Assembly (NCBI GenBank): GCA_002737445.1
Contig: NSIR01000001.1
Location: 95,288-159,287 of the forward strand
Direction: 5' to 3'
From: Nitrosarchaeum sp.
Lineage (GTDB): Archaea > Thermoproteota > Nitrososphaeria > Nitrososphaerales > Nitrosopumilaceae
Length of the DNA: 64,000 nt
Shown here: one piece after another, positions 30,978 through 43,475 of the stretch
Numbering within the stretch: the stretch's first letter is position 1
Layout of the letters: each line of letters starts with the position of its first letter
Program-made: the position numbers and the translations under genes
Notes under the pieces: model-generated
What the model saw: the letters and a program-made list of their open reading frames with translations, nothing else
What the model was told of the DNA's origin: nothing
The model's database searches: none

Positions 30978-31337
30978 ATGATTCCTGGAGAATATTTTAT
31001 TTCAGATATACCAATTATCGCAAATGAAAATAGACAAACTGTAAAAATTCTTGTAACAAGTACTGGTGATAGACCAATTCAAGTTGGCTCTCACACCCAT
31101 TTTTTTGAGGTAAACAAAGCCCTCTCTTTTGTACGAAAAAATTCTTATGGATTTCATCTAAATATAGCATCTGGAACTTCAATTAGATTTGAACCAGGTG
31201 ATACTCGAGAAGTAGAACTGGTAGAATATGCTGGAAAAAAAATTGTCTTTGGATTTTCTGGACTAGTCAATGGTAAATTAAATGAAAAATATGATGAGGC
31301 ATTACGTAAAGCAAAGGAAATGGGTTTTAAATCATGA
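30978..31337 (+). CDS. ureB: Urease beta subunit
   Basis: 119 residues, beta-rich. IPGEYFISD start, the [11 protein letters not shown] block and the [17 protein letters not shown]-like segment are typical of UreB. Its 3' end overlaps ureC by 4 nt (ATGA), so the subunits are co-translated. Confidence 0.97.
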
Positions 31338-33046
31338 CTTTAAAAATACCTAGAAAAACATACGTTGATCTTTTTGGTCCAACTACCGGTGATAAGATTC
31401 GACTGGCTGACACTGATTTGATAATTGAAATTGAAAAAGATCTTTTGGTATATGGTGATGAAGTAGTTTTTGGCGGAGGAAAAAGTGCTAGAGACGGTTC
31501 AGGTCAAGCAAGTGGTGTAACTCGAGAAAATTCTCTTGATCTTGTAATTACGAATGCAATCATTATGGATCCGATTTTAGGCATAATTAAGGCCGATATT
31601 GGAATTAAAGATGGAATTATAGTTGGTATCGGTAATGCCGGAAATCCTGACATTATGGATAAAATTGATATGATTATTTCCTCAAACACTGAAATAATTT
31701 CCGGGGAACACACAATTTGCACTCCTGGTACAATTGATACACACATTCATTTTATTTCTCCACAACAAGCAACACATGCAATTTGTAGTGGCACAACTAC
31801 AATGATTGGTGGTGGGACTGGACCTGCTGATGGTACAAATGCCACAACATGTACTCCAGGTTCTTGGAATATTCAAAGAATGATAGAGGCAGTTGATGAA
31901 CTTCCACTAAATTTTGGTTTTTTGGCAAAAGGAAATGATTCTCAAGAAATTGCATTAATGGATCAAATCAAAGCTGGTGCATGTGGTTTAAAATTACATG
32001 AAGATTGGGGAACAACTCCTGCAACAATTGATGCTGCATTACGTGTTGCAGATAAAACTGATACGCAAGTTGCAATTCACACTGACACATTAAATGAATG
32101 TGGATATGTTGATGATACAATCAATGCGATAAATGGTAGAACAATTCACACATATCATACAGAAGGTGCAGGGGGAGGACATGCACCAGATATTATGAAA
32201 ATTGCTGGTGAGAAAAATGTTTTACCATCATCTACAAATCCTACAAGACCATTTACTGTAAACACTTTATCTGAACATTTGGATATGATGATTGTTTGCC
32301 ACCATCTAAATCCTGCAGTTCCTGAAGACATATCTTTTGCAGAATCCAGAATTCGCGGTGAGACAATTGCAGCTGAAGATGTCTTGCATGATATTGGGGC
32401 ACTTAGTATGATGTCCTCTGATAGCCAAGCAATGGGAAGAGTAGGTGAGGTTACAACAAGAAATTGGCAAACTGCAGATAAAATGAAAAAAATGAAAGGT
32501 AGATTGACTGAAGAATCTGGAGAAAATGATAATTTTAGAGTAAAACGATATCTTGCAAAAATAACTATAAACCCTGCAATAACTCATGGAATTTCTCATA
32601 TTGTAGGATCACTGGAGATTGGAAAAATGGCTGACATTGTAATTTGGACGCCACAATTTTTTGGCATTAAACCCAAATTAATTATCAAAGGTGGAATGAT
32701 TGCATATTCATTAATGGGTGATCCAAACGCCTCAATTCCACCAGCCGAGCCTGTATCTTATAGACCAATGTTTGGTTCAATGGGTGGTGCAAAATATTCT
32801 ACATCTGTCACGTTTACCTCACAATTAGCAATTGATCATGGATTGTCCTCAAAAATTAAAATTGGCAAGAAATTGGTTCCCGTAAAAAACTGTAGAAATA
32901 TTAGTAAAAAAGATATGATTTACAATAATTCTACGCCTAAAATTGAGATAAATCCGGAAACATATGAGGTACGAGTTGATGGAAAAATAATTACAGTCGA
33001 CCCAGCAGATACTGTATCTCTTGCAAGATTGTATAATTTATTTTAA
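31334..33046 (+). CDS. ureC: Urease alpha (catalytic) subunit
   Basis: 570 residues, full length. Hydrolyses urea to ammonia and carbamate at a binuclear nickel site. Nickel ligands are visible: His137 and His139 (THIHF), carbamylated Lys220 (GLKLHED), His249, His275 and Asp363. The catalytic flap VCHHL carries Cys322 and His323. No catalytic residue is missing, so the enzyme should be active. Ammonia would feed ammonia oxidation and assimilation, and CO2 would feed carbon fixation, given the inferred lifestyle. Confidence 0.98.
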
Positions 33047-42024: not shown

Positions 42025-43377
42025 CTACCATCTGCTACGTCCACCATAGCTATTTCCGCCACGGTCTCCGTATTTTTTTCTACCGTCACTTCCACCGTCT
42101 CGTGAATCTCCCCTTGATGAACTTCTTCCACCGCCACCACTAGAGCGACCATATCCTCCGGAACGTCCGTATCCGCCTGAACGTGCATATCCGCCAGATC
42201 TTGATTGTGAACCTCCGTATCTTCTGGAAGTTGATTGTCGTTTAAGTGGATCTGGTATTGATATTTCAATTCCCATTTCTTTATTCAAATCAGTTAATGG
42301 AACTTTGATTTGACGTTTGACTAAATTCCAATCCCCTACTGAAGAATATGATACAAGTGTAATTGCTCTTCCCTTTGCACCGGCTCTTGCGGTTCTTCCA
42401 ATTCTATGGAAATAAACCATTTCTTGATTTGGAACATCATAATTGACTACTAGTTCTACTCTTGGAACATCAATTCCCCTTGATGCTACATCTGTTGCTA
42501 CAAGAATGTCTACTTTATTATTTCTGAATTTTGACATTGCTTGCTCTCTTCTACTTTGTGACATGTCACCTTCAATTGCTACAGCATCAAATTTTTCTTG
42601 ATGTAGATATTTTGCTACATCTCGAGTTCTATATTTTGTTGAACAGAAAACTATGATTTGACCTTTAATTGGTTTGATAAAATCAATTAGATATTTCATT
42701 TTATCTCTATCTTTAATTACAAGAAATGCTTGATCTATTCCTTCTCCACTAAGATCATCTGCATCAAGCAAAAATTGTTTAGGATTTTTCAAATAATCTT
42801 CAGATAGTCTGAGAATTGCAGTTGGCATTGTTGCTGAAAATAATGACATGATTCTATCTTCTGGAGTTAGATCTAAAATAAACTGAATATCGTCAATAAA
42901 TCCCATATCCAACATTGTATCTGCTTCATCTAGTACAACATGTGTAATGTCTCCTAGTTCTATTGAACCTCTTTTGAGATGGTCAATTAATCTTCCAGGT
43001 GTTGCAACTACAATTTCCACACCTCTATCTAATGCATCTAACTGTAATCCCATACCCTGGCCTCCGTAAACAGTAGCTACTCTAACTCCTGTATATTTTC
43101 CAAATTTCTTTACCTCTCCAGAAATTTGTATTGCAAGCTCTCTTGTTGGTGCCATAATTAATCCCTGAATTCCTTTTTTTGGTTTTATTTGTTGAAGCAT
43201 TGCTAAAGCAAATGCGGCTGTTTTACCAGAACCTGTATGTGCTTGTCCTACTACATCTCTGCCAGTAATTAGTACAGGTATCACTGCTTCCTGAATTGGG
43301 AATGCATCTACAAATCCCATTTCATGAATTGCTTTCGTTAGCTCTTCTTTTAATCCTAAATCTTGAAATTTTGTCAT
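42025..43377 (-). CDS. DEAD-box RNA helicase with Gly/Arg/Ser-rich tail
   Basis: 450 residues from ATG 43377. All core motifs are present: Q motif, HTGSGKT (I), PTRELA (Ia), DEAD (II), SAT (III), and HRIGRTARAG (VI). The last about 70 residues are low complexity (SGGYGRSGG repeats, RGD/RGG-like), typical of RNA-annealing tails. It unwinds structured RNA, often in the cold. A TTG at 43398 is also in frame, but the leader structure and TATA favour ATG 43377, giving a 5' leader of about 50 nt. Confidence 0.93.
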   Translation of the reverse strand: MTKFQDLGLKEELTKAIHEMGFVDAFPIQEAVIPVLITGRDVVGQAHTGSGKTAAFALAMLQQIKPKKGIQGLIMAPTRELAIQISGEVKKFGKYTGVRVATVYGGQGMGLQLDALDRGVEIVVATPGRLIDHLKRGSIELGDITHVVLDEADTMLDMGFIDDIQFILDLTPEDRIMSLFSATMPTAILRLSEDYLKNPKQFLLDADDLSGEGIDQAFLVIKDRDKMKYLIDFIKPIKGQIIVFCSTKYRTRDVAKYLHQEKFDAVAIEGDMSQSRREQAMSKFRNNKVDILVATDVASRGIDVPRVELVVNYDVPNQEMVYFHRIGRTARAGAKGRAITLVSYSSVGDWNLVKRQIKVPLTDLNKEMGIEISIPDPLKRQSTSRRYGGSQSRSGGYARSGGYGRSGGYGRSSGGGGRSSSRGDSRDGGSDGRKKYGDRGGNSYGGRSRW

Positions 43378-43394
43378 TTTGTTTTGTCTCTTAA

Positions 43395-43429
43395 GCAATG
43401 ACGAAAAAGCTCATTGCCCACTCGTCATT
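43395..43429 (-). promoter_or_regulatory. Leader of the DEAD-box helicase with two mutually exclusive hairpins
   Basis: On the minus strand, AATGACGA (43429-43422) can pair with TCGTCATT (43404-43397), 8 bp; or GCAATGA (43417-43411) can pair with TCATTGC (43401-43395), 7 bp with a 9-nt loop. Both use the same five bases TCATT, so only one can form. The start codon lies 17 nt downstream. Confidence 0.65.
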
Positions 43430-43446
43430 ATTCGGATATGCGATTT

Positions 43447-43456
43447 CTTTTTTAAG
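43447..43456 (-). promoter_or_regulatory. TATA-like box for the helicase
   Basis: CTTAAAAAAG on the minus strand; the usual 26-nt spacing puts the RNA start close to 43428, at the first arm of the leader hairpin. Confidence 0.5.
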
Positions 43457-43475
43457 GTCTAATAAACGCTTGTTC

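Follow-up and report, generated by a model that had tools for sequence, protein, structure and literature searches.

The leader of a DEAD-box RNA helicase gene in the window (the whole 64 000-nucleotide stretch of Nitrosarchaeum sp. DNA analysed here) almost certainly carries a conserved RNA hairpin, judging from sequence comparison, which is built of an outer stem (AAUGACGAG/UUCGUCAUU) and an apical stem. We propose that this hairpin acts in cis to control, after transcription, the only DEAD-box helicase gene of the Nitrosopumilaceae, with feedback by the helicase as the likeliest mechanism, a combined reading to which we give an even chance. A family-wide leader hairpin on the only DEAD-box helicase would open post-transcriptional feedback to testing with a defined RNA and a defined candidate protein. 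The features of the locus, all on the minus strand, are as follows.

42025..43377 (-), DEAD-box RNA helicase gene, 450 amino acids, with a Gly/Arg/Ser-rich tail (Pfam PF00270, PF00271)
43378..43393 (-), A-rich spacer between the hairpin and the start codon, mostly unpaired in predicted folds (sequence and folding)
43394..43418 (-), second hairpin of the first-pass annotation, GGCAAUGA (43418-43411) with UCAUUGCU (43401-43394) (sequence; weak covariation)
43396..43405 (-), 3' arm of the outer stem, UUCGUCAUUG (predicted fold, covariation)
43407..43419 (-), apical stem-loop GGGC-AAUGA-GCUU within the outer stem, loop AAUGA at 43415-43411 (letters change across genera, pairing kept)
43421..43430 (-), 5' arm of the outer stem, UAAUGACGAG (predicted fold, covariation)
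43426..43428 (-), upstream AUG in the 5' arm, which would open a five-codon ORF, MTSGQ* (in 109 of 121 leaders)
43434..43439 (-), region where transcription is predicted to start, with A43437 as the preferred position (28-29 nt from the first T of the TATA box)
43456..43474 (-), conserved promoter segment AACAAGCGTTTATTAGACC, with the TATA box TTTATTA at 43466-43460 (almost the same sequence throughout the genus mates and in most genera)

The helicase gene, its promoter and its leader

The first-pass annotation of this DNA had read the gene as a DEAD-box helicase starting at 43377, with which the two Pfam domains agree. The closest NCBIfam models are CshA, DbpA and DeaD, with scores under the model cut-offs. 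In nearly every relative the helicase has exactly one match at E < 1e-80; identity drops to about 25% for the remaining helicase-like matches of a genome, and the product of 42025..43377 can thus be regarded as the sole close DEAD-box homologue per genome.

We compared 130 orthologous helicase leaders, with 17 genus mates. Unlike the promoter and the leader, the spacer after AACAAGCGTTTATTAGACC differs among relatives, as does the end of the upstream gene. The distance from TTTATTA to the hairpin arm is nearly fixed (35-40 nt in 111 of 112 scored leaders). The TATA box had previously been placed at 43456-43447, but that site is not conserved, and the conserved box is the one at 43466-43460. 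The near-invariance of AACAAGCGTTTATTAGACC over several genera exceeds what a plain TATA box needs. Around the predicted genes of the window, TTTA[AT][AT] peaks 28-29 nt upstream of the ATGs, a weak statistic that concerns just five of 58 genes; with so few genes it checks the earlier description of the window as mostly leaderless only weakly. Since the same spacing applied to the TATA box at 43466-43460 leads to a 5' end near 43437, we prefer this position to the 43429 suggested at first. Conserved sequence (TATCGG in relatives) begins at this predicted start region. The hairpin thus very probably belongs to a transcribed 5' leader, with a predicted length of about 60 nt, as deduced from the position of the promoter. 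Leaders close to TATCGGAATAATGACGAGTRGGCAATGAGCTTTTTCGTCATTGCTTAAGAGAAGAAAACAAAATG are found in every genus mate whose locus is intact, as well as at Nitrosopumilus, Nitrosomarinus and Nitrosotenuis loci, those of Nitrosotenuis being more diverged than those of the other two. The spacer in front of the start codon has the consensus UUAAGAGAAGAAAACAAA in relatives, and no Shine-Dalgarno sequence is evident in it (43378..43393).

Structure and covariation of the hairpin

In the window, the leader is predicted to fold as one long hairpin: UAAUGACGAG pairs with UUCGUCAUUG, a U-U mismatch follows, and GGGC (43419-43416) pairs with GCUU (43410-43407) around the loop AAUGA. The first pairing described by the first-pass annotation, AATGACGA (43429-43422) with TCGTCATT (43404-43397), is present; the apical pairing had been missed. 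Because its loop is itself paired, this fold is a single long hairpin, far stabler than the alternative discussed below. The 60-nt leader has a better predicted fold than expected by chance (z = -2.65, with two of 200 shuffles equally good), and the same long hairpin is predicted from 5 to 37 °C. It starts some 7-12 nt in from the predicted 5' end and stops at least 17 nt before the AUG, which the predicted fold leaves open (unpaired in the window folds at 25-37 °C).

Covariation was examined in an alignment of 92 distinct leaders (A1), counting changes per sequence and not per independent event on the tree. Counted in this way, 97.2% of the outer-stem cells are paired, two-sided changes occur at six of the seven pairs and none of 500 shuffles is as good, whereas controls in which the whole structure was slid along A1 reach at most 65% paired. 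RNAalifold independently found the same outer stem, with all six of its six pairs compensated. The replacements run in several directions: G-C to A-U (L118 and L119), U-A to C-G (L160, L179 and L198) and A-U to G-C (L166, L204 and L205). The apical stem is also re-lettered and yet paired, as AGG-UUCG-CUU in genus g13, AGGU/ACUU in g15, AGCC/GGCU in L161, AGGU/ACCU in L165 and GUGC/GUAC in L201, and it is kept through changes in g8. Compared with shuffled loops it has a mean z of -2.2, and 53 of 73 distinct loops rank among the best 10 of 200. The loop AAUGA occurs in most genera and the GC that follows the 3' arm is conserved. Loss of the pairing in close relatives had been named at the outset as grounds for dropping the idea; what we find is pairing kept both in close relatives and in 20 of 22 genera, with compensatory changes.

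One-sided changes bear on the nature of the molecule. In the core of the outer stem they leave G-U in 21 cases versus A-C in four, and in the next pair out in 23 versus one. This excess of G-U over A-C indicates that the hairpin acts as RNA of the mRNA sense strand. An inverted repeat in the DNA, serving as a transcription-factor operator just downstream of the promoter, would account for the proximity of the element to a promoter that is itself unusually conserved. A DNA palindrome should nevertheless show no preference between the two mismatches, and here G-U is tolerated on the mRNA strand whereas A-C mostly is not; moreover, the spacing of the arms differs by single bases between leaders and the inner stem covaries. 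We consequently disfavour the operator, which we consider highly improbable.

The upstream AUG belongs to the same 5' arm. In the 109 leaders that have it, the ORF often reads MTxxQ*; it stops ahead of the helicase start in 88, overlaps this start in 19 and continues in frame into the helicase in two. The frequency of the AUG, the recurrent peptide and the many ORFs that end before the helicase start would fit a short regulatory upstream ORF (MTSGQ* in the window) that acts on the gene and is read out by the hairpin. However, neither the stop nor the frame is conserved, so that a conserved upstream-ORF peptide was rejected as a candidate, and g15 does without the AUG; we hold this explanation to be quite improbable. 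In the two in-frame cases (L209 and L172), an N-terminally extended protein is possible.

The alternative hairpin

The first-pass annotation had put forward two mutually exclusive hairpins in balance, possibly shifted by temperature. Its second pairing, GCAATGA (43417-43411) with TCATTGC (43401-43395), does exist in the sequence; as it had stated, the arms of the two hairpins share TCATT and the second hairpin ends 17 nt before the ATG at 43377. The comparison does not support the balance itself. Across leaders at 37 °C, the predicted advantage of the first fold over the second averages 4.4 kcal/mol. In the window, the second and first folds have predicted energies of -10.6 versus -15.4 kcal/mol at 37 °C (a gap of 4.8), -14.0 versus -20.0 kcal/mol at 25 °C (6.0) and -20.1 versus -28.6 kcal/mol at 5 °C (8.5), and the predicted occupancy of the second hairpin at 25 °C is below 0.1% (probability below 0.0001). 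As the gap is large and cooling widens it further towards the first fold, these predictions give no support to a bistable switch or to a thermoswitch.

The comparative evidence is of the same kind. The second pairing is formed in 91% of cells, but only five cells have two-sided changes, a level equalled by 12 to 20 of 500 shuffles; even this pairing says little independently, because its 3' arm is already constrained by the outer stem. The second hairpin is absent from g13, g15, L014 and L016, lineages in which the first fold and its apical stem remain. A lone observation favours both pairings: in L118 all three arms have changed in step. In one clade of genus g14 (L177, L178 and L182), GGCGGUGA/UCAUUGCC is predicted to be as stable as the long hairpin or stabler, and these are the only leaders whose predicted energies prefer the second hairpin.

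A bistable switch, in which the 3' arm would move from the outer stem to GGCAAUGA under the action of temperature, the ribosome or the helicase, can draw on arms that are present in most genera, on L118 and on the preference seen in L177 and L182. It is at odds with a second hairpin whose predicted stability in the window at 25 °C falls short of that of the first fold by about 6 kcal/mol, which several genera lack and which shows little covariation of its own, and with a predicted fold that stays the same from 5 to 37 °C. The start codon is hidden by neither fold. The marks of an RNA thermometer or bistable switch, namely folds of similar stability, a fold that shifts within the physiological range and sequestration of the start site, are not seen in the predicted folds. 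We regard such a switch as very improbable and, from the modelled energies and the weak covariation, the second hairpin as no more than a minor alternative. A further pairing noticed by eye, between the 3' arm and AAUGAC of the start region, was also considered and rejected: it is lost when the 3' arm changes (for example in L198, L204 and L205), and we take the resemblance as a coincidence of Met-Thr coding.

Distribution of the hairpin

A covariance model (R1) was built from the hairpin and matches were counted at E up to 0.1. They occur in 201 of 250 Nitrosopumilaceae genomes and in 20 of 22 genera, including 118 of 131 good genomes, with essentially one strong match per genome. Wherever compared, the match lies upstream of the helicase gene and on the same strand, at distances from the start that range from a few nucleotides to about 25, and every strong match checked adjoins the helicase gene. 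The bins G009 and G149 hold two helicase copies and two hairpin elements each. Three weak second matches, considered as other target genes, were taken as chance, since none of them precedes a helicase. When R1 was run over 300 genomes of the class, all of the matches listed fell within Nitrosopumilaceae.

No family of Rfam 15 matches the leader at its gathering score, and the hairpin RNA appears to be undescribed so far in Rfam and the accessible literature. A C/D box sRNA was rejected: AUGACGA resembles a C box (RUGAUGA), but a conserved D box CUGA is absent, and the best leader matches to the Rfam C/D families are far under the cut-off. Elsewhere in the window, Rfam 5_ureB_sRNA matches 31483-31775 (-) with an E value of 4e-12, antisense to the urease alpha subunit gene (31334-33046, +); this match most likely reflects coding homology rather than an sRNA.

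Possible function

Taken together, the tie to the sole DEAD-box helicase, covariation of the RNA type and a position near the predicted 5' end suggest that the hairpin controls the helicase gene post-transcriptionally, which we consider probable from these comparative data. Acting from the 5' end, it would determine how the mRNA is used or degraded, while the start codon stays unpaired. By binding or opening the hairpin duplex, the helicase would exert feedback on its own production: under a shortage of the protein, as might arise in the cold, which makes the hairpin stabler, handling of the mRNA would change and helicase output would rise. The helicase is the most economical agent of such feedback, since duplexes of this sort are what it naturally acts on and since the Thermococcus leader and E. 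coli DeaD provide precedents. That the helicase itself acts through the hairpin is plausible and in keeping with the exclusive association of the two; it is nonetheless a tentative proposal, for which we put the chances slightly under even. The route from hairpin to translation is not obvious, since the hairpin ends well before the AUG and leaves it open in the predicted fold. In addition, DEAD-box proteins usually bind with no sequence preference, and the conserved loop AAUGA with the flank GCUUAAGAG therefore suggests a reader more specific than the helicase alone.

Such a reader could be another RNA-binding protein, or an RNA acting in trans, that controls the helicase gene by binding the hairpin. 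Sequence conservation beyond the pairing (AAUGA in most genera and the GC past the 3' arm) is what one would expect of a binding site. Yet the genomes searched contain no second target of the motif, and in g13 (UUCG), g15 and others the loop has been replaced while the hairpin is retained; we think this alternative unlikely. We give a similarly low rating to a plain stability element that would shield a long-lived mRNA from 5'-to-3' decay without any feedback. The hairpin's nearly fixed place close to the predicted 5' end and its predicted persistence from 5 to 37 °C are well suited to this role; a pure protector, however, could do without the conserved loop and flank and should turn up on other genes as well, whereas the element occurs essentially once per genome.

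A more elaborate version of helicase feedback would give the second hairpin a part. The helicase would open the long hairpin, the freed 3' arm would pair with the copy of AAUGA in the apical loop, and the second hairpin would be a transient state that sets the use or decay of the mRNA. If this improbable scheme were true, the helicase would gauge its own activity on its own leader, making the latter an energy-driven RNA switch and not an equilibrium switch.

Comparison with known systems and other lineages

Ammonia-oxidizing archaea dominate marine nitrification, and we know of no experimentally established regulatory 5' leader in them. Among archaeal helicase genes, deaD of Methanococcoides burtonii has a long leader; it belongs to a different lineage and, to our knowledge, has not been described as carrying a conserved hairpin family. 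Rho, which enters one of the comparisons below, is a bacterial factor.

A 2014 paper called the experimental support for regulatory 5' leaders in archaea very limited (PMC4247193). The DEAD-box gene TK0306 (deaD) of Thermococcus kodakarensis has a 159-nt leader containing a tRNA-Lys (PMC4247193), and its cold induction and the determinants thereof are reported, to go by the titles of the references. TK0306 and the gene studied here are alike as archaeal DEAD-box helicase genes with a long 5' leader; the Nitrosopumilaceae leader differs in being about 60 nt long with one hairpin, and we know of no sequence or structure common to the two. The M. burtonii gene is cited in PMC9800685 as an archaeal DEAD-box gene regulated by low temperature. 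The same paper cites a report of autoregulation of E. coli deaD (csdA) via mRNA stability and Rho-dependent termination. As presented there, E. coli deaD is a DEAD-box helicase that controls its own mRNA and could serve as a model of how the proposed feedback works, although, unlike in Nitrosopumilaceae, it does so in a bacterium and by those two routes. As a leader RNA that is attached to one gene and found by covariation, the hairpin also resembles the candidate structured RNAs and ribosomal-protein leaders from comparative genomics (PMC2864571, PMC7247131), the main texts of which mention no helicase and no Nitrosopumilus or thaumarchaeal leader. By analogy, the hairpin may work like a helicase-gene control leader, which would be a likeness of kind and not homology.

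In the sister family Nitrososphaeraceae, the helicase leaders carry a different conserved element, ACGGCGGAT..AAGT..ACTT..ATCTTCCGT, followed by GTGA before the start. In L252-L281 it can also be read as ACGGCGGAT...AAGT...ACTTTTCATATCTTCCGT..CTTTTGT, located roughly 30-110 nt upstream of the helicase start. From its sequence this leader looks like another irregular hairpin; RNAalifold gave no consensus on the Nitrososphaeraceae leaders, the alignment being too gapped. The existence of a distinct helicase leader in this family suggests that leaders on the helicase gene are general in these archaea. Finally, two Bathyarchaeota loci (L025 and L028) have a helicase leader in common, TGTCACA...TTTTTGTGA, which is a possible hairpin.
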